Of a stretch of DNA of 19,278 nt, positions 1 through 14,423 are shown piece by piece (within the stretch, counting starts at the first letter, position 1; every line of letters begins with the position of its first letter). The stretch is from Frigidibacter mobilis (lineage in GTDB: Bacteria; Pseudomonadota; Alphaproteobacteria; Rhodobacterales; Rhodobacteraceae). A program made the translations under genes and the position numbers. The DNA is taken from positions 1 through 19,278 of the forward strand of contig NZ_CP012663.1 of assembly GCF_001620265.1 (NCBI RefSeq), in the 5' to 3' direction. Under the pieces are notes generated by a model that worked only from the letters and a program-made list of their open reading frames with translations, did not search any database and was not told the origin of the DNA.

Positions 1-1808
1 GGGCCGCCCGCCTGCGGCGGGCCAGCCTGCAAATCCTCGGCCTGACCCTGCTGCTGCGCCTGCCGGTGCTGTGGGAATGGGTGTCTGACGTGCCGACCGC
101 GCCCGCCCTGTGGTTGCGCTTCCTGAATTTCCAGTTTCTGACCTTCCCCGGCATTGTCGGGCTGTTCGGCGCGGCGCTTGCGGCCTTCCCCCTGTGGGGC
201 CTGCTGAAATTCATCGGCTGGGTCTGGCGCGGCCTGCGCTATCGCCGGCCGGCCGGCGACCGCCTGCCGCCGCTCAGCGACAATTACGGCAGCGCCCGCT
301 ATGCCGACCTGCGCACCGATCCGCCCGAGGGGGATACCGGCGTGTTTTTCGGGAAAAGCAGCCATCCCGACTTGGGGGGCGTGCCGCCCGCCGATCAGGC
401 GGGCGGGCCGGTGTTCTCCAAGCCCGAGAACCATACCCTGATCGTCGCGCGGACGCGGACAGGGAAGGGAACGCGGATCATCGTGCCGACCCTGCTGGAT
501 TATGACGGCAGCGCGGTCGTGATCGACCCCAAGGGCGAGAACGCGGCGATCACCGCCCGCGCCCGCAAGTTCTTGGGGCAGGAGGTGCATGTCATCAATC
601 CGTGGAATGTTCTGGCCGCCACCTTCGCGGCGCGGCAGATACCGCCCGCGACCTTCAATCCGCTCGACATGCTGGACCGCAACGATCCGAACGCGGTCTC
701 GCTGGCGCAAACGCTGGCGCGGGCCGTTTGCCCATTCAGCCCTGACGACAAAGACAGCTTTTGGCAGGGAGCTGCCGCCTCTGTGCTGACGGCGGTGTTC
801 CTATGGATCACCGACCAGCCCGGCGAGACCAAGACGCTCGCCGCGCCCGCGAGATCATCAGCCTCAGCCGCAAGGATTTCACCGCCACCTATCTGGTGCC
901 GATGGCGGCGAGCAGCGCCTTTCACGGCGCGATCCGCGAAATGGCCAGGCCCTTTATCGACCTCGCGGACGAGACCTATTCCGGCATCATGGCGAACCTG
1001 TCGGAGAACACGAAATTCCTGTCTGACCCGCAGATCAAGGCAGCCACGGCAAGGTCGAGCTTCGACATGGCCGACCTCATCCGCAAGCCGACCTCGGTTT
1101 ATCTGGTGATCCCGCCCGACCGCATCGACACGCAGCGCACCTGGCTCCGGCTGATCGTCGCTGCCGTCATGAACACCCATCGGTACTATCCGCTCGATCA
1201 GCGGCCGGGGCATCGCTGCATGGTGCTGATGGACGAGTTTCCCGCGCTTGGCCGCATGCCGGACATGCCGAGCGACATCGCCACCATGGCCGGCTATGGC
1301 ATCGACTTTACCCTCATTGTTCAGGGCATCGACCAGCTGAAGGATCACTACGGCAAGGGTGCGGCCGCCCTGCTGTCCAACTGCGCCTACAAGTGGTTCT
1401 GCAATGTGCAGGACCTTGAGAGCGCCAAATACCTCTCCGAAACCCTTGGCAAGACGACCGTGCGCACGCTTGGGCAGTCCGAGGGCGAGAACCAAGGCCC
1501 GGCGGCGCGTCAAAGAGCGCGGCAAGAGCTACGGGGAGACCGGCCGGCTGCTGCTGGCCCCCGACGAGGTGCTGACGCTGGGCCGTGACGTGGCGATCGT
1601 GCTGAACCCCGAGGGCCACCCCCTCTACGTTCACCCCGTCGATTACTGGCAGCTGAAGGACGCCTTCCGCCACCTGGCGGGGCGGACGCTCCGGTTCACG
1701 ACGCTGCGCTTCGATGAAAACCCCTATCATGAGGCCGGCAAGAAGAAGGCGGGGCAGGGGGCGAGCAGAAGAAGCAGGCCCCGCCCAAATCCAGCACCGG
1801 CCCCATGA
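1..1808 (+). pseudogene. traG: VirD4/TraG-type conjugative coupling ATPase, 5' end outside window, frameshifted
   Basis: Type IV coupling proteins are inner-membrane ATPases that bring the relaxase-DNA complex to the secretion channel. The frame is already open at base 3, so the start lies upstream of the window. Two hydrophobic segments (about 40-75 and 105-235) precede the ATPase. The Walker A region is seen as ARTRTGKGTR near 447-477, followed by VVIDPKGEN near 518-545; Walker B is MVLMDEFPALG near 1221-1253. The C-terminal region has the family's GETGRLLL and HPVDYW blocks. As given, the frame breaks near 846 and again near 1504 and 1521. Adding one base in each G/C run restores TLAAAREIIS and a GASKSAGKSYGETGR-like reading. 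The stop overlaps a downstream ATG (1805) in an ATGA arrangement. No VirB genes are present, so it must serve a transfer channel encoded elsewhere. Confidence 0.88.
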
Positions 1809-2162: not shown

Positions 2163-2171
2163 GCAAGCCAT

Positions 2172-2552
2172 GGACGGACTGACCGTCCGTCCGCTTGGCA
2201 AGGGAGACGCTTCGCTCTCCCGTTGCATCCCTCTCGATCCGCGTTGACACCGGAACCGTCCGGGGAGCCTTCGTGCTCCCTGCGACCCATGACCGGGGCT
2301 TTGCCCTCGGTACCCACCAAGGCGCATCGCCCTTGGAACCAGACGAGGGCTATCGCGCCCCTCGACCACTCGCCGGAACTTTCGCATCCCGGCACCCACG
2401 ACCAGAGCTTTCGCGCTCTGGACATCGAGCAGGCGGCTTTCAGGCCCCTGCACCCTGACGAGGGATATTCGCTCCCTCGACCCCGAGCAGGACACGCCGT
2501 TCCTGCACCTCGGCCGGGTTTCACCCCGGACCCGACCATGGGGCGGCCATGG
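2172..2552 (+). repeat. Tandem array of about 12-13 short hairpins, period about 28 nt
   Basis: Successive perfect or near-perfect stems of 5-8 bp follow each other with centres mostly 25-30 bases apart. Clear ones are GGACGGAC/GTCCGTCC (2172-2192), GGGAGA/TCTCCC (2202-2221), GGGAGC/GCTCCC (2263-2280), CCAAGG/CCTTGG (2317-2336), CGAGGG/CCCTCG (2344-2364), CCAGAGC/GCTCTGG (2402-2421), GCAGG/CCTGC (2429-2451), CGAGGGA/TCCCTCG (2459-2479), GCAGGA/TCCTGC (2487-2506) and CCATGG/CCATGG (2536-2552). Weaker ones lie at 2250-2263, 2293-2310, 2372-2393 and 2514-2529. Stem sequence differs from unit to unit while pairing is kept. Many loops contain TTCG, ATCG or TTTC, and spacers in the second half follow ACCC(C/T)GA. 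An open frame crosses the region, but the repeated peptide DEGY.-PRP appears in two different frames, so structure rather than protein seems conserved. Confidence 0.75.
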
Positions 2553-2603: not shown

Positions 2604-2783
2604 ATGGCGGATGATCTGACGATGCACCGGCGCTTGGCCGATTTGCCCGCCCCTGCGGCGGACAACGACCCGCTGGCCGACGCGCGGCTCATGGCGCGGG
2701 CCGCTGGCTTCGGAGATCGTGTCGATCTTTTCATCATCGCCCGTGCACGCGGCCACCGGATCATGCCGGAGGGCACGGCATGA
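2604..2783 (+). CDS. traD: Small TraD-like conjugal transfer protein
   Basis: This 59-residue protein resembles the short TraD proteins found just upstream of mobC/relaxase genes in alphaproteobacterial mobilization modules (not the F-plasmid coupling protein of the same name). The centre, with DPLADARLMARAAGFGDR, and the end, with ARARGHRI, are its recognisable parts; no catalytic motif is visible. The start at 2604 is supported by GGGGGAGGGA ending 3 bases before the ATG. The same frame is open back to 1980 through the hairpin array, but that upstream stretch looks non-coding. The stop overlaps the mobC start as ATGA, so the two are translationally coupled. Its exact role is unknown to me; an accessory DNA-processing function is inferred from context. 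Confidence 0.6.
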   Translation: MADDLTMHRRLADLPAPAADNDPLADARLMARAAGFGDRVDLFIIARARGHRIMPEGTA

Positions 2784-3226
2784 CGGATACGCCCCGCCAG
2801 CCCCGCCCCAAATCCGAGGCCCGGCAGCGCACCGATCGGCTGTTTGTCCGGCTGACGCCCGAGGAAAAGGCGATTTTCCTCGGGCGCGCCGATAAGGCCG
2901 GCCTGACGGCCGCCGCTTTCCTGCGGGCGGCGGCGCTTGGCGACGCCGGCCCCCGCGCGCAGAAAAGGGTTCCCGCCGATGCGCAGGCGCTGCGCGAGGT
3001 GCTGGGGCACCTCGGCAAGATCGGCGGCAACCTCAACCAGATCGCCCGCTATCTGCACACCGGCGGCAGCACCGAGGTGGTGCTTGGCGATATTCGGGAC
3101 GTTCTGGCCGACCACGCGCGCATCCGCGACCGTCTTTATGAGGCGCTTGGCAAAGTGCCGGATCACGCCCGCCCGAGCGACCCCACCCAGACCCCGCCGC
3201 CGAAGCGGCCACCGCCGCAGCGATAG
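2780..3226 (+). CDS. mobC: MobC/TraJ-like relaxosome accessory protein
   Basis: MobC-family proteins bind oriT beside nic and help the relaxase open the strands. This one has 148 residues. The N-terminal third contains the ribbon-helix-helix-like stretch TDRLFVRLTPEEKAIF followed by AAAFLRAAAL. The central GHLGKIGGNLNQIARYLHTG block is the hallmark of bacterial mobilization protein MobC (N-L-N-Q-I-A). The C-terminus is a proline-rich, basic tail (from about residue 128). It overlaps traD by four bases and ends 10 bases before the relaxase start, so the three form one operon. The frame is intact, unlike several neighbours. It would be expected to bind near the candidate nic at 2135-2141 or the hairpin array; that is inference. 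Confidence 0.85.
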   Translation: MTDTPRQPRPKSEARQRTDRLFVRLTPEEKAIFLGRADKAGLTAAAFLRAAALGDAGPRAQKRVPADAQALREVLGHLGKIGGNLNQIARYLHTGGSTEVVLGDIRDVLADHARIRDRLYEALGKVPDHARPSDPTQTPPPKRPPPQR

Positions 3227-3235
3227 GGCGCGGCG

Positions 3236-4780
3236 ATGATTGTCAAAGGGGGATCACGGGGCGGGCCGCAGCAACTGGCCGACCATCTGCGCCGCACGGA
3301 CACGAACGAGCGCGTCGAGGTGCTGGAATTGCATGCCGGCACCGACGACCTGGCCGCGACCTTCCGCGATTGGCAAGTGCTGTCCGAGGCGACGCGCGGC
3401 AGCAAGGGCCTGTATCACGTCAACATCGACCCCGACGCCCGCTATGTCATGACCCCCGACCAATGGGCGCGGGCCGTGGAGGTGCTGGAACAGGAGCTGG
3501 GCCTCACCGGCCAGCCCCGCGCCGTGGTGATGCACGAGAAAAAGGGCCGCCAGCACATCCATGTGGTGTGGGCGCGCACCGACCTTGAAACCATGACGCT
3601 GCGCGATGACGGTTTCAACTATGACGCTCATGAACGGGCCAGCCTGCGCATGGAGCAGGAGTTCGGCCATGAGCACGTCCCCGGCAAACACGCCAAGCGC
3701 GACCGCGAGAAACAGCCTGACTTCCCCCGCGCGGAAATCACCCATGCCGAATGGCAGCAGGCCGAGCGGGCCGCCCTGTCCATTGACGAGCGCAAAGCGC
3801 AGATTACCGCCATCAAGGAATCCTGCGACAGCGGCCCCGCCTTCAGGGCGGCCCTGGACGAGGCGGGCTATGTGCTCGCGCGCGGCGATCGACGCGGTTT
3901 CGTGCTGGTGGACGCGGAGGGCGAGGTTCACGTTCTCGGCCGCCAGATCGGCATGCGCGCGGCCGAGGTAAAGGCGTTCATGGCCGATGTGGACATGGAC
4001 GCTCTGCCGTCCGTCGCGGAGGCGCGGGAGCATCAGGAAGCGCGGCAGGCCGCGCCCGTGCCGGAAGCCATATCGCCTGATCCGGCGCCACCGGCGCCGG
4101 AGGCTTCCGCCCCTGAAAAGCCCGCCCTGTCCGCCGTCCAGATGGATCCGCCGCCGATCGAGGATCTGGCTCCCGCGCCCGAGGCGCGGAAACCGGATCT
4201 CGATCCTGCCCCCCTTGATCCCCTTGTCGCGGCCGCGCTCGCCGCGCGGGAGCGGGAAGAAGCCGACAAGCTGGCGGCCTGGCACGCGGCCGAGACCCGC
4301 CAGCTTGAGCGGGCGCTGCTGCGCGAGGTGCAGGACAAGCTGAAGGCGCAGGACGCCCTTGATGCGGCCGAGCGCCGGCGCTTCGAGCGAGAGATGAAGG
4401 AAAAGCAGCGCGGCATCCTCGGCTACATCGAGGCCCTGCAAAACCGCCTGAATCCCGGACGCGGGGCCGAGCTGCGGCAGGCCCGCGAACAGGCGCGCCA
4501 GCAGCTTCATGCCCGGCAGGAGATCGAGCGGCGGGACATGCAGGTGCTATGGGAACAGACCAAGGCACAGGAGCTGGAAGCCCTGGCCGAGCGCCACGCG
4601 CAGCAGATGCGCGAGCAGGCCGGCCGCTTCGAGGAAGACCGCAAACGCTATGCCGAGGATACCGAGCGTTCGCGCCGGCTGTTGGAACGCATCGAGGAAG
4701 AGCGGCGCTTGCGCGAGCGGCAGGAACAGGAGCGGTGGGGCAGGGGAGACCCGCCCGGCGGCGGAGGGCGGACAAAGTAG
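3236..4780 (+). CDS. Relaxase (MobA/VirD2-like mobilization nuclease)
   Basis: Relaxases nick oriT, stay covalently bound to the 5' end and pilot the strand through the coupling protein. The N-terminal domain (about residues 1-150) starts with MIVKGGSRGGPQQLADHL. It contains the metal-binding histidine motif, H100 then H107-I-H109-V-V-W, in MHEKKGRQHIHVVWART, typical of the MOBP-like nuclease fold. No tyrosine occurs before residue 60, so the usual N-terminal catalytic tyrosine is not obvious; Y60 or Y70 are the first candidates. Residues about 265-335 are rich in proline and alanine, and about 335-505 form a charged coiled coil rich in Glu, Arg and Gln. The start at 3236 follows mobC by 10 bases. 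The TAG at 4778 is probably premature: one extra G near 4760 would join the frame to 4781-5142, giving 635 residues. Confidence 0.88.
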   Translation: MIVKGGSRGGPQQLADHLRRTDTNERVEVLELHAGTDDLAATFRDWQVLSEATRGSKGLYHVNIDPDARYVMTPDQWARAVEVLEQELGLTGQPRAVVMHEKKGRQHIHVVWARTDLETMTLRDDGFNYDAHERASLRMEQEFGHEHVPGKHAKRDREKQPDFPRAEITHAEWQQAERAALSIDERKAQITAIKESCDSGPAFRAALDEAGYVLARGDRRGFVLVDAEGEVHVLGRQIGMRAAEVKAFMADVDMDALPSVAEAREHQEARQAAPVPEAISPDPAPPAPEASAPEKPALSAVQMDPPPIEDLAPAPEARKPDLDPAPLDPLVAAALAAREREEADKLAAWHAAETRQLERALLREVQDKLKAQDALDAAERRRFEREMKEKQRGILGYIEALQNRLNPGRGAELRQAREQARQQLHARQEIERRDMQVLWEQTKAQELEALAERHAQQMREQAGRFEEDRKRYAEDTERSRRLLERIEEERRLRERQEQERWGRGDPPGGGGRTK

Positions 4781-5890: not shown

Positions 5891-6643
5891 ATGCGCGGCA
5901 TGTATCAGGAAGATCTCAGCACCAGAAACCAAGGCTTCACGCTGGTCGAGCTGGCGATTGTCATTACCATTATCGGACTTTTGATCGGCGGGGTGCTGAA
6001 AGGGCAGGAGTTGATTAACAACGCCCGCGTCACGGCGACAATTGCGCAGATCAAAGCCTATCAGGCGGCCATGCTTTCCTTTCAGGATCGCTACGACCAG
6101 TTTCCCGGAGATTTCTCGGTTGCGCTAACCCGTGTGCCGGGGTGCACCACCGACAACTATTGCTCCAATGGTGATGGAAATTCCCGAGTTGGAAATTATT
6201 ATACAGGAGCAGCGATTGGCACCATACAAACAGGGACTGCCGTTCCCGCCGTTGAAACGTCAAACTACTGGAAGCATTTGGCGATGGCCGACCTGATCTC
6301 CGGCGTCAATCCATCCGCAAACCCGGCTAGTCCGGTATTTGGAAAAACGCATCCTTCATCACCATTTGGCGGCGGCTTCATGACCGTTTTCGGGATGCAT
6401 GTTACCGGCTCCAAAGCCGGCTTGTGGCTTGTTCTCTCGAATACGCTGACGGGGACGACGGCCTATCTCCCGAGCGCCCAAAACGTGCTGACACCCGCGC
6501 GTGCGGCGCAGATTGACCGCAAGATGGACGATGGTCGTCCAGATGCTGGCTATGTGCAGTCGCCGGATAACGGCACTTGCGACTCTGGAAGCCCCGGATT
6601 TATCGGGAAAGTGATGAATATGCGAACCAAAAGACCTGCATGA
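5891..6643 (+). CDS. Type IV prepilin-like protein (class III signal, pilin/pseudopilin)
   Basis: The N-terminus has a short basic leader ending in G15, then FTLVE with glutamate at mature position +5, then a hydrophobic helix (LAIVITIIGLLIGGVL). This is the prepilin peptidase signal of type IV pilins and type II secretion pseudopilins. Residues about 40-85 continue as an amphipathic helix. The C-terminal globular part holds cysteine pairs in PGCTTDNYC and near GTCDSG. The start follows GGGAGGG with 7-base spacing. No pilus assembly ATPase, platform protein or peptidase is in the window, so it would depend on host machinery. It could be a minor pilin, a DNA-uptake or mating pilus subunit, or a decoy subunit. 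It lies between two HR(E/D)DGPA repeat genes and behind a long structured leader. The frame is intact. Confidence 0.82.
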   Translation: MRGMYQEDLSTRNQGFTLVELAIVITIIGLLIGGVLKGQELINNARVTATIAQIKAYQAAMLSFQDRYDQFPGDFSVALTRVPGCTTDNYCSNGDGNSRVGNYYTGAAIGTIQTGTAVPAVETSNYWKHLAMADLISGVNPSANPASPVFGKTHPSSPFGGGFMTVFGMHVTGSKAGLWLVLSNTLTGTTAYLPSAQNVLTPARAAQIDRKMDDGRPDAGYVQSPDNGTCDSGSPGFIGKVMNMRTKRPA

Positions 6644-7779: not shown

Positions 7780-8648
7780 GTGGAGCATGTCAGGGCGGCG
7801 CTGGGCGTCTCGGAGCGCTTTGCCTGCCGCGTGCTGGGCCAGCATCGCGCGACGCAGCGGCAGGCACCAGCCCCTCCGGACGACGAAGCGGCGCTGACGG
7901 CGGCGATCATTGGCCTGGCCCGGCAATACGGCCGATACGGCTACCGCCGGATCACGGCCTTGCTCCGGGCCGAAGGCTGGCACTGCAACCACAAGCGGGT
8001 GGAGCGGATCTGGCGCCGCGAGGGGCTGAAGGTGCCTGCCCGACAGCCCAAACGTGGAAGGCTGTGGCTGAGTGACGGCTCCTGCGTGCGGCTGCGCCCC
8101 GAACGGCCGGACCATGTCTGGGCCTACGACTTCGTGGAGGACCGGACGCGCGACGGACGCAAGCTCCGCATGCTGAACGTGGTGGACGAGTTCACCCGTG
8201 AATGCCTGGCGATCCGGGTGGCGCGGAAGCTGAGCTCCCTTGATGTCATCGACGTGCTGACGGAGCTGTTCATCGCCCGGGCACGCCCGCGCATATTCGC
8301 TCCGACAATGGCCCTGAGTTCGTGGCCAAGGCGGTGCAGGGCTGGATCCGCGGCGTTGGCGCAAAGAGCGCCTTCATCGAGCCCGGCAGCCCCTGGGAGA
8401 ACGGCTATGTGGAGAGCTTCAACGGCAAGCTGCGCGATGAACTGCTTGACGGCGAGGTGTTCAACACACTGGCCGAAGCCAGGGTGCTGATCGAGCAGTG
8501 GCGGGTCCACTACAACACGACCCGCCCCCATTCCTCGCTTGGCTATAGGCCACCAGCACCGGAGGTGATCATGCCGGAAAGGGCCAGACCAGTGCCCCAC
8601 CCCGGTTCCAATGGCTCATCGCCGCCGCCTCTGACCATGCTCCACTAA
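7744..8648 (+). pseudogene. IS3-family transposase OrfB (DDE), one-base frameshift
   Basis: OrfB supplies the rve-type DDE catalytic core. The first aspartate is in HVWAYDFVED. After the frame break come SDNGPEF (second aspartate, in the restored frame) and GSPWENGYVESFNGKLRDEL (glutamate region). The N-terminal part carries the HTH_21-like YGRYGYRRITALLR block. The frame changes at the GGG run 8279-8281; adding one G restores ARGTPAHIRSDNGPEF. It is expressed through the -1 slip at 7744 rather than from its own start; GTG 7780 would be a possible internal start. Whether the frameshift is real or a base-calling error cannot be decided here. Confidence 0.85.
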
Positions 8649-8681
8649 AATCTTGCCCGGAACAGTTGATGGGGCTGGTCA

Positions 8682-8723
8682 GTCAACGAAGCTCTCCCAG
8701 CGATCTCCGATGGAGACGTTCAA
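8682..8723 (-). pseudogene. parD: ParD antitoxin, N-terminal fragment (TTG start)
   Basis: The minus strand reads LNVSIGDRWESFVD, matching the beta strand and first helix of ParD family antitoxins, and then runs into the IS3 right end. The start codon is TTG at 8721-8723. It is supported by AGGGAGG seven bases upstream (CCTCCCT at 8731-8737 on the + strand). The rest of the gene lies at 7214-7408. The 150 bases upstream, up to the IS1380 element, should hold the parD promoter; no clear -35/-10 pair was identified. Confidence 0.72.
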
Positions 8724-8876
8724 CGTGAATCCTCCCTGCGATTCCGGCTAGCGCAATAACAAAAAATATGCATTCTGCGTTATCGTTGCGATGTCGGTTT
8801 GTGGCCCATATAGGGCATCGGCAGCCATTTTTCTGCGCCACCCGACCCGGCACGCTGTTGCATCCATGGCATGTCA

Positions 8877-10548
8877 CCCCACATTCTCCAAGTAAGTCGC
8901 TGATTTCGCTGTCGTAATCGTGATATTTCGCATATAAATCATGGCGTTGACGGCTGCGAGGGGCGCGTTTCATGGATCACCTGGAGGGTGCGGGCTTGGC
9001 GCGGGGAGATCGGGTTGATTTCGACCGCCGTGTGCGTCTGGAGTTCCGTGGTGCGCAGATCAGTTCAGACGGTGGCCTGCTGGTGATGCGCGAGCTTGAT
9101 GACGTGCTCGGCCTGTCCAATCTGGCGTCGGAGGCGCTGCGAGACAGCCGCACCGGGAAGAACACGCTCCATCGGCTTGACGGATTGTTCCGGCAATCGG
9201 TGTTCGGACGACTGGCCGGATACGAGGATGTGAACGATGCCGACCGCTTGGCCCTCGATCCCGTGATGCGTCAGGTCGTTGGCGGCAGGGCCGTCGAGGC
9301 GCAAGCTGCTTCGGCATCGCAGATGGGACGGTTCGAGACCGAGACGCTGGCTCTGGCCGCGAACCGGGCGGCGCTGGCCGATCTGAACGGCCAATGGATC
9401 GACCGGTTTCATGACCGCAACGGGTTGAAATACATCGTGCTGGACATGGACAGCTCGGTCAGCCCCACCCACGGCGATCAGGAAGGTGCTGCCTGGAACG
9501 GGCATTTCGACTGCACCTGCTATCACCCCATCTTCTTGTTCAACCAGTTTGGCATGCTGGAGCGCTGCGCCCTGCGTAACGGCAATGTCCACAGCGCCGA
9601 TGGCTGGCGGGATGTCCTTGATCCCGTCATTGCCCGATATGCTGGCCGCGACCTTGGTGGACGCTTCTTCCGGGCCGACGCTGCCTACGCGATCCCGCGA
9701 TCTATATGCGGCTGGAAGAAGCCAGGTTCTTCTACGCCATCCGTCTGCCCGCCAACGCCGTCTTGCGCGAGAAGATCGCGCATCGGCTGACACGGCCCGT
9801 GGGACGGCCTTCGCTGACCAAGGTCAAACGGTTCTTCGAGGACTTCGAGTATCAGGCGGCGTCCTGGGACAAGCCGCGCCGCGTCATCGCCAAGATCGAA
9901 TGGCATCCGGGCGAGCTGTTCCCCAAAGTCGGCTTCATCGTCACCAACCTGCCGATGGAGCCAGACTGGGTGGTGAGGTTCTACAACCAGCGCGGCACCG
10001 CAGAGCAGCACATCAAGGAAGGCAAATATGCCTTTCGCTGGACGCGGCTGTCATGCCGGAAGTTCCGGCACAACGAGGTGCGGCTGCAACTGCACGCGCT
10101 GGCCTACAACCTGGCAACCTTCCTGCGCTGCATCGAACTGCCCGAGGCCATGGCGGACTGGTCGTTGACCAGCCTGCAACTCAAGCTGATCAAGATCGGC
10201 GCCCGCGTCGTCCGCCACGCCCGCGCCATTACCTTCCAGTTGGCCGAGGTCGCCGTCACCGGCCCGATGGTGCGGGCCGTCCTTGCCGCCATCCGCCGTC
10301 TTCGAACGCCTCCGTCATGCGCATGACCACGATCCATGCCCAAGCTGAACGAAAGCGGCAGGACAGGTCCGTCTGCCGCGCGGAAAAGCGGCTCTGCCGG
10401 GCCAGAATGCTGCGGGTTCGAGGCTTGATCCACCCGACTTCGGCCGTTTGCGCGACGACAGACACCGCTCGGGGCGAAAAACGCTTGCCCAGCGAGCAAA
10501 ATCAGGCGATCTTGAAGTCAAGCGGCAGGCCACTTGGGGAATGTCGGG
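8877..10548 (+). mobile_element. IS1380-family element, about 1672 bp
   Basis: The inverted ends are CCCCACATTCTCCAAGT (8877-8893) and, read on the opposite strand, CCCGACATTCCCCAAGT (10548-10532), with 15 of 17 bases matching. The length and single transposase gene fit IS1380. TCA flanks both ends (8874-8876 and 10549-10551), a possible remnant of the target duplication (the family usually makes 4-5 bp). Bases 10327-10531 are non-coding 3' sequence of the element. The right end lies only 13 bases before the start of the secreted-protein gene at 10562. Confidence 0.78.
8972..10326 (+). pseudogene. IS1380-family transposase, one-base frameshift
   Basis: The protein shows the family's N-terminal DFDRRVRLEFRGAQISSDGG block and the YEDVNDADRLALDPVMRQ segment. 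It also shows DMDSSVSPTHGDQEGA with the first catalytic aspartate region, and the C-terminal FYNQRGTAEQHIKEGKYAF block with the catalytic glutamate. ATG 8972 follows GAGGGG at good spacing. The frame breaks near 9694-9698; one extra C or G restores AIPAIYMRLEEA and a 451-residue protein, the usual length. All DDE regions are present once the frame is repaired, so the element may be active if the break is a sequencing artefact. Confidence 0.9.
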
Positions 10549-13588: not shown

Positions 13589-14079
13589 TCATTCAACTTG
13601 TCCGGCAGCTACAGACAAGATCAATGTCAGCGGATTCGTTACAGAGGGAATGAATCCATGGCGTTCATAAAACGCCCGCGCCTCGTCCGAAATCGCATGC
13701 ACAAGGACGCCACGAATCCCCATGATCGAGGCGGCTTGCTGGACGCGCAGCACCGCGTCTTGCAGAAGCGCCACCCCAACCCCCTGTCCCTGCATGCTGC
13801 GGTCGATCGCCAGCCGGCCCAAGACTGCCATGGGGATCGGATCGGGCATGTTCCTCTTGATCCGGCCGGGCGATTCCGCATGCGCAAGCGCGCCGGAGGC
13901 CAGCGCGTAATAGCCCACCACGCGGTTTTCCGGGTGGCGACAACATAGATGCGCGACGCACCGGAGAGCTGGTTCGCCATTGCCCGCCGACGCAGCCAAT
14001 CATCCAGCGACGACACGCCGGAATCGAACGCTGTCAGGATATGCGCGCCTGTCAGAAGGCTTGGGGCCTGCAACTCCAC
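13589..14079 (-). pseudogene. tacT: GNAT acetyltransferase toxin (TacT-like), one-base frameshift
   Basis: TacT-type toxins acetylate aminoacyl-tRNA and stop translation. The start is GTG 14079, two bases after the antitoxin stop. The N-terminal part reads LDDWLRRRAMANQLSGASRI, typical of the family. After the frame break at 13925-13931 (one base short; repaired as ATRENRVVGYYALA) the fold continues. It includes RNMPDPIPMAVLGRLAIDRS, the acetyl-CoA loop QGQGVGVALL, and the C-terminal HAISDEARAFYERHGFIPS. The repaired length is 163 residues, the normal size. If the frameshift is real the toxin is dead; if it is an artefact this is a working plasmid-stabilisation module. Confidence 0.87.
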
Positions 14080-14081
14080 GC

Positions 14082-14372
14082 TTACCCCTTCCAGGGCTTG
14101 GGCGCACGCATCAGCCGTTCATACCCTTCACCGGACGGCGGCCGATCCAGAACGGCTAGATACTGCGCGTAGGTGTCGGCATCGACCCGCACGAAGGTCT
14201 GATCTAGCAGCGCATTTTCCGCCGCCTGCCGTGACGCCTCGATCATGAAATCCGAGCGCGTCTTGCCGTTGACACGCGCTGCCTGGTCGATCAGATCGCG
14301 CACGTCCTCGCGCACGCGCAAGTTTACGGGGCGCGTGACCGGCGAAACGGTTTCTTTGGAAGTCATAGCCAT
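14082..14372 (-). CDS. tacA: DUF1778 (TacA-type) antitoxin
   Basis: A 96-residue protein with an N-terminal ribbon-helix-helix domain (RPVNLRVREDVRDLIDQAAR, then GKTRSDFMIEAS) and a C-terminal toxin-neutralising tail (LAVLDRPPSGEGYERLM, LMRAPKPWKG). DUF1778 proteins pair with GNAT toxins and autoregulate the operon. ATG 14372 is chosen because AAGGAGA lies 8 bases upstream; the frame is open further up to 14414. The toxin starts two bases after its stop. A perfect palindrome at 14405-14423 upstream is the likely operator. Confidence 0.9.
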   Translation of the reverse strand: MAMTSKETVSPVTRPVNLRVREDVRDLIDQAARVNGKTRSDFMIEASRQAAENALLDQTFVRVDADTYAQYLAVLDRPPSGEGYERLMRAPKPWKG

Positions 14373-14404
14373 GGTGCATCTCCTTTTCTTCAGCATAGCA
14401 CGAT

Positions 14405-14423
14405 AGATACACAATGTGTATCT
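14405..14423. promoter_or_regulatory. Palindromic operator upstream of the toxin-antitoxin operon
   Basis: AGATACACA-A-TGTGTATCT is a perfect 9+1+9 palindrome, 33 bases upstream of the antitoxin start. Ribbon-helix-helix antitoxins of this family bind such sites to repress their own operon; the assignment is inference from position and symmetry. Confidence 0.6.

Follow-up and report, generated by a model that had tools for sequence, protein, structure and literature searches.

What is the row of short hairpins between the coupling-protein and mobilization genes of Frigidibacter mobilis, to which element does it belong, and what might it do? The window, i.e. the whole stretch of DNA analysed, corresponded to the complete 19,278-base contig C3 of the host genome. 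The initial annotation had reported about a dozen short, near-evenly spaced hairpins at 2172-2552, and unit-by-unit folding confirmed 12 of them at 2250-2552, mostly 25-30 nt apart, after two longer hairpins (2163-2197 and 2198-2226). The array in that interval was therefore real, but its first two hairpins formed an oriT-like segment (hereafter the head) starting at 2163, before the start given. Head and array were placed between the split coupling-protein gene and mobC, with mobC and the relaxase gene downstream, as follows (hairpins were identified by folding, and the head also by the sources named).

66..1588, plus strand: TraG/VirD4-like coupling protein, split over overlapping frames 66-1109 and 761-1588
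2163..2197, minus strand: hairpin 1 of the predicted oriT head, outer CAAG/CTTG, inner 8-bp stem (also alignment A1 and model R1)
2198..2226, minus strand: hairpin 2 of the predicted oriT head, base GCAA/TTGC, stem GGGAGA/TCTCCC, then conserved ATCC (also A1)
2250..2263, minus strand: possible first array unit, CCGG...CCGG, 4-5 bp stem, with one base common to the next unit
2263..2280, minus strand: array unit, 6-bp stem, 6-nt loop (ACGAAG on minus)
2292..2311, minus strand: array unit; with a 6-nt loop, the mismatch is G.T on plus and A.C on minus, which contradicts a minus-strand reading
2317..2336, minus strand: array unit CCAAGG/CCTTGG
2344..2364, minus strand: array unit, minus loop GCGATA, one bulge
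2372..2393, minus strand: array unit, full 8-bp stem and loop GCGAAA only on minus
2402..2421, minus strand: array unit CCAGAGC[GCGAAA]GCTCTGG
2429..2451, minus strand: array unit with one bulge
2459..2479, minus strand: array unit CGAGGGA[7]TCCCTCG
2487..2506, minus strand: array unit GCAGGA[8]TCCTGC
2514..2529, minus strand: array unit CCGGG[GTGAAA]CCCGG
2536..2552, minus strand: last hairpin, CCATGG[5]CCATGG
2780..3226, plus strand: mobC-like relaxosome protein (NikA-like PF21983, MobC PF05713)
3236..4780, plus strand: relaxase (PF03432)

Ten array loops started at 2269, 2299, 2324, 2351, 2380, 2409, 2438, 2467, 2494 and 2519, i.e. in steps of 25-30 nt. Perfect 5-bp stems in 2240-2555 numbered 3, 2, 4 and 3 for loops of 6, 7, 8 and 9 nt, respectively, compared to means of 0.41-0.44 in 500 dinucleotide shuffles; shuffles of equal composition, a check that the initial annotation had proposed, on average made far fewer such stems. 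The shuffle maxima were 4, 4, 3 and 3, so that with loop sizes taken one by one only loop 8 exceeded the best shuffle, and one hairpin may be counted under both loop 6 and loop 8. The TTCG-like loops noted initially were found on the plus strand, but on the minus strand the loops read GCGAAA or GCGATA-like.

Elsewhere in the window, a pilin-like protein with a prepilin-type N-terminal signature (5891-6643) and transposase genes of the IS3 and IS1380 families (7780-10326) were observed, the IS1380-family transposase looking split (only its first piece was scanned for families). An ORF pair on the minus strand (13589-14414) is presumably, from its appearance, a GNAT-type toxin with a DUF1778-type antitoxin.

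The head as a predicted transfer origin

At the end of hairpin 1 the minus strand reads GGCTTG|CAAAG, which places the predicted nic between 2164 and 2163. The cores CTTG|C(A) are given for pRS01, pS7a, pS7b, pRJ6 (P7) and Tn1549 in tables A3 and A4 of PMC7755788. Minus-strand CTTG was followed by C at +1 in 98% of 124 loci (of 128), CTTG itself being demanded by the search, and conservation fell past this C (0.42 bits at the next base). The link to a nic-like site suggested by the initial annotation was supported by relatives, and CTTG|C on the minus strand equals published nic cores. Model R1 matched the window at 2151-2240 with 71.8 bits, the window being part of its training set. Alignment A1 (85 sequences) showed GCAAG, a variable stem, CTTGGCAAGG, a second variable stem and CCGTTGCATCC; it comprised 84 of 116 head references and the Rhizobium etli locus L144, the other 32 being omitted for long hairpin-1 inserts or for no special reason. 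The head stems covaried in A1, and the search-motif letters, which include part of hairpin 2, were invariant by construction.

When 61 genomes, the host's own among them, were searched at the DNA level, seven others matched, six of them at window 2192-2236, i.e. in the head; the seventh (G052) matched near the array end. Heads were further compared across nine plasmid regions with a relaxase relative (of 14 plasmids) and Desulfosarcina Do28_2. A head lay directly upstream of mobC in Desulfosarcina, Sphingopyxis pSREG01, Methylomagnum and Nitrosospira, and variant heads were found in pTF4.1, X. hortorum, Sinorhizobium and Bradyrhizobium, while no clear head was seen within the 700 nt inspected in Sphingobium (L152) and Peteryoungia (L155). 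Plasmids carrying relaxase relatives were mostly assigned to MOBP by MOB-suite, with one, Sinorhizobium pSymB, assigned to MOBQ. A first candidate nic on the plus strand, at GCATCC, was dropped because the four variant heads keep CAAG...CTTG but change GCAT, which in heads of the main type makes up the base of hairpin 2.

Overall, the head combines a nic core, an inverted repeat 5' of the nic (hairpins 1 and 2) and a co-occurring relaxase. Because mobC and the relaxase gene lie downstream and the minus-strand GGCTTG|CAAAG matches published nic cores, the segment 2163-2230 is very probably the origin of transfer (oriT) of a MOBP-type relaxase. The nic position and the assignment of the minus strand as T-strand are predicted from the motif match.

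The association with the relaxase was further verified in 100 genomes of the host's family (own included), where the covariance model found a head in 16. Of these 16, 14 carried the relaxase (E below 1e-60), as did 6 of the 84 genomes without a head; as this line was set afterwards, the counts at the search's own limit (1e-12) are also given (14/16 and 11/84). Without the six genomes that contributed rows to the relaxase alignment, it was found in 8/10 head genomes compared to 6/84 others (p = 1e-6). All 12 heads with a relaxase gene on the same contig had it on the array side, at distances from adjoining to about 18 kb. Upstream of the head, serine recombinases were directed away from it in 26/26 loci and coupling-protein genes in 22/29, an orientation from which we infer the layout of integrative mobilizable elements.

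Several other features were observed around the heads. One single-contig 3.6 Mb genome carried two (L177 and L178; G007:C1, near 1543079 and 1843858), each flanked on one side by a serine recombinase and a coupling protein and having a relaxase on its other side, at a distance of 13-18 kb; the array units numbered 1 and 6, respectively. Large proteins of one family, which by their appearance we take to be type IIG restriction-like, lay near heads in 7 loci (L011, L018, L019, L028, L041, L035 and L068), and a type I restriction system adjoined the head of the R. etli locus. A small protein of unassigned family was found in 9 loci, in several beside the serine recombinase (in L010 at -578 to -194 of the head, minus strand). 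In addition, seven contigs filed as viral in IMG/VR possessed a head (L129, L130, L131, L133, L136, L138 and L140); three of these (L130, L131 and L138) also had a serine recombinase and may thus be mobilizable islands rather than phages.

Distribution, selection and folded strand of the array

Heads for these comparisons came from an exact-letter motif scan, which is biased to one head subtype and matched at least 120 times in genome contigs and 14 times in viral ones. Among at least 140 pattern matches (6 earlier loci, 120 genome, 14 viral), 129 passed the hairpin filter, and among the matches listed 123 loci (6, 110 and 7, respectively) were left after L032, L034, L115, L139, L141 and L142 had been dropped by name. 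Loop counts and the mismatch strand test were based on 115 distinct segments of at least 300 nt, also among the matches listed.

Three or more array units followed 78 of 128 heads (18/31 mob-adjacent and 60/97 others), compared to 4/92 far controls. In the family sample, obtained with the covariance model and not with exact letters, at least three array-side units were found in 12/17 heads, including 8/9 whose relaxase gene is 4-18 kb distant, and in only 1/17 controls further on and 0/17 upstream. These family-sample counts strengthen the tie: the array goes with the oriT head, and not with mobC or with the interval between coupling-protein gene and mobC. The position given initially, between coupling-protein and mobilization genes, therefore holds in the window, but in relatives the array is tied to the head instead. 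The arrays at heads without a close mobC or with a distant relaxase also ruled out a mobC leader. The array is not essential, as some heads lack it: no unit was found at 14/128 heads, and fewer than three at 5/17 family heads. In L114, L116, L118, L125 and L126, the head was followed by 0 array units and then by other DNA.

Array composition was mosaic. Scoring of eight unit types gave 42 different non-empty strings in 61 of the 78 loci (none of the types in the other 17), with types recurring in partly kept order, a pattern that redundant and interchangeable sites would produce. Where no mobC lay close to the array, the next ORF was on the plus strand in 32 loci and on the minus strand in 20 (52 loci; crude ORF calls), a weak strand bias that does not favour a promoter for that gene.

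In the stretches downstream of the 115 heads, 309 six-nt loops had five perfect closing pairs, compared to 53 in shuffled sequences, and for eight-nt loops, partly from the same hairpins, the counts were 257 and 55; loops of 5, 7 and 9-12 nt were raised as well (92-132 compared to about 56). Control stretches had no six-nt peak and only mild rises (upstream, loop 7, 85 vs 44, and loop 3, 76 vs 50; far stretch, loop 9, 58 vs 40). In the unit-1 stems of 44 loci (alignment A2), 93.6% of cells were paired, while slid versions of the stems were 11-56% paired. The search for compensatory changes in homologous regions, proposed initially, gave 50 double-change cells in these loci, compared to 14.3 in shuffled alignments. 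Unit-1 loci were chosen by their loop and a trailing CAC, and A2 holds 44 of 47 segments (L002, L026 and L092 were left out as unpaired); across all 47, 207/235 cells were Watson-Crick (88%).

No conserved reading frame was detected: of 53 arrays, 9-10 had plus-strand frames without a stop over 300 nt and 2-4 had such minus-strand frames, and array indels did not come in threes (length modulo 3 of 0, 1 and 2 in 150, 539 and 219 cases, respectively), which ruled out a coding repeat. Spacing peaks at 27, 30, 33 and 36 nt in the arrays resemble those of coding sequence, but this reading was discarded because frames and indels deny it; the peaks probably reflect shared descent of a few unit pairs. 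Overall, selection of the array as a structure and not as a peptide, which the initial annotation had suspected, is supported: the stems covary, no frame is kept and indels ignore the codon length.

Which strand folds was deduced from mismatches. Among 7-bp stems with one mismatch and six-nt loops at the 115 heads, the plus strand showed 52 A-C and 15 G-T mismatches, compared to 5/8 and 11/11 in the flanking controls (together 16 A-C and 19 G-T). As a plus-strand A-C corresponds to G-T (G-U) on the minus strand, the minus strand is the one that folds. The bias was found separately in the 31 mob-adjacent loci (21/5) and the 97 others (32/11). An A-C excess was also present for loops of 5 to 14 nt and was reversed at loop 4 (7/17), and loops of 20-44 nt were near the composition expectation (227/194). 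The excess at other loop sizes may arise as even loop sizes share hairpins and odd ones represent bulged units; these controls weaken the specificity of the test for six-nt loops, not its direction. C-to-T change on an exposed T-strand could contribute to the skew and would likewise mark the minus strand as exposed.

In the window itself, 12 array units folded singly as RNA were more stable on the minus strand in 7 cases, equal in 2 and less stable in 3; unit 2372-2393 reached -12.1 kcal/mol on minus, with two wobbles, and -7.2 kcal/mol on plus. Counter to the minus-strand reading, the fold z-scores of the window were stronger on plus (RNA, 2100-2600: -5.2 on plus and -2.8 on minus; DNA, 2160-2560: -5.1 and -3.1), and the wobble of unit 2292-2311 lies on plus. 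Head hairpin 1 was without strand bias (9 G-U and 8 A-C cells, tallied from A1). Across the loci, the folded strand is the minus strand, which is also the predicted transferred strand.

Proposed function and comparison with known systems

The relaxase would nick the minus strand at CTTG|C (2164|2163), and this strand would be exported as the T-strand, with its 5' end, on the side of the coupling-protein genes, in the lead. With the nic as predicted, the array lies just 5' of the nick and would arrive last, the T-strand ending with mobC/relaxase, array, head and 3' hydroxyl in this order. Once single-stranded, the array could fold into successive redundant hairpins, usually with loops of six bases. 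These would most likely recruit a host factor that starts the complementary strand, be it RNA polymerase, primase or another replication protein, so that the array would resemble a single-strand origin situated immediately upstream of the nick. Folded single-stranded DNA at the leading or lagging end of transfer had been among the initial proposals; given the predicted nic, the lagging, last-transferred side and the minus strand stand, and the leading end does not.

In most rolling-circle plasmids, the single-strand origin (sso) lies upstream of the double-strand origin and becomes single-stranded only when displacement is almost complete (PMC4595007). As the array would, with the nic as predicted, occupy this usual position, a single-strand origin or a loading platform is favoured. 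The oriT is accordingly read, with about an even chance of being right, as carrying an appended single-strand hairpin array that likely serves as single-strand origin or protein-loading site for second-strand synthesis, a function suggested by position and form. The wider proposal of a new class, i.e. a modular array of about ten exchangeable ssDNA hairpins at the last-transferred end that works as a single-strand origin or loading platform with many sites, is put forward more tentatively. Like an sso, the array is a strand-specific folded non-coding sequence near a predicted nick origin, which a same-strand RNA fits equally. A counter-case is ICEBs1, where the sso lies on the other side of oriT and the authors argue that an upstream sso could harm integrating elements (PMC4595007).

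The main rival is transcription of the minus strand into a structured non-coding RNA needed for mobilization, the hairpins being RNA, as the wobble test cannot separate RNA from DNA of the same strand. SGI1 offers a precedent, with an sRNA encoded between mpsA and oriT that is described as essential for transfer in the relevant part of PMC9299015. This is nevertheless unlikely: no sigma-70-like promoter was found in 1700-2900 (0.1 expected; host promoters may differ), no terminator-like site at the array and no Rfam match up to E 10 in 2100-2620, and mosaic units (42 strings in 61/78 loci) seem, in our judgement, unusual for one RNA fold. Distinctly less probable is a single-stranded promoter (Frpo/ssi-like) on the T-strand driving the adjacent plus genes (mobC, island cargo) early in the recipient. 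The plus genes right of the array, mobC among them, would indeed have the minus T-strand as template, and Frpo promoters are folded T-strand structures in the account of PMC11541004. Yet the array lies on the last-transferred side, and in the test reported there a position in the lagging region made expression considerably less effective; crude ORF calls put the next ORF on plus in just 32/52 array loci where mobC is not close, the scan of 1700-2900, which targets duplex sigma-70 promoters, gave no -35/-10 match, and about ten near-equal units are unlike the form reported for Frpo in that account.

Window hairpin 2, GGGAGA[8]TCTCCC, resembles units of relatives such as GGGAGA[6]TCTCCC, and arrays start directly after it, as if the hairpins were amplified copies of it to which MobC or the relaxase, as relaxosome proteins, could additionally bind in the donor. 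The MobC of the window presumably has the same fold as the accessory protein PcfF of pCF10. Array stems, however, vary freely with structure alone kept, and PcfF is described as binding double-stranded inverted repeats specifically in the part of PMC6514445 concerned, which makes such sites improbable here. Recombination-prone repeat debris, either REP-like hairpins by oriT without function or a cargo-swapping site, would agree with the variable length and composition of the arrays and with the abrupt stop of some at unrelated DNA; it is very improbable, as covariation, loop-length preference and strand bias over many loci need selection.

Within the databases and literature searched, the array appears to be new. 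Rfam 15 held no family matching the array region, blastn of the window region against plasmids and of one relative's array against phages gave no match, and the best-ranked results of the open-licence literature described no such array and held nothing relevant for the head letters. As far as the Rfam and open-licence literature searches go, the oriT is of a known kind and the array a new component attached to it, and comparable arrays lie next to this kind of oriT in other bacteria, on plasmids as well as on islands. If the preferred reading of a single-strand origin or loading platform is true, the array would secure second-strand synthesis for plasmids and mobilizable islands. The 2015 ICEBs1 paper stated, in the part concerned, that virtually nothing was known, for any ICE, about the conversion of the transferred strand to double-stranded DNA (PMC4595007); a compact, recurring array that can be deleted, reversed or transplanted beside oriT makes this step directly testable. 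Moreover, the head model marks transfer origins on islands whose relaxase lies many kilobases off and thus helps to delimit these elements.

The oriTs with core CTTG|C (pRS01, pS7a/b, pRJ6, Tn1549 and, we assume, the pCF10 group) share its nic core, inverted repeat at the nic, accessory protein and relaxase; here, in contrast, a second hairpin and a long array follow, of which there is no mention in the published descriptions consulted for those systems. Frpo/ssi promoters are likewise folded T-strand DNA of conjugative elements, but in the account of PMC11541004 they belong to the leading region and carry promoter motifs, whereas the array lies on the lagging side of the predicted nic with no motif in the duplex scan. 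The sgm-sRNA of SGI1 is also a non-coding stretch between a mobilization gene and oriT; its mobilization proteins are of tyrosine-recombinase type and not a relaxase, and the portion of PMC9299015 drawn on here mentions no hairpin array. The sso's of rolling-circle plasmids, mostly upstream of the nick origin, and sso1 of ICEBs1 resemble the array as orientation-specific non-coding stem-loops on the displaced strand in the corresponding part of PMC4595007. Unlike the array, sso1 is described there as having three stem-loops important for activity and similarity to known sso's; the locus studied here has about ten hairpins with variable stems, joined to a proteobacterial oriT, for which a comparable role is proposed.
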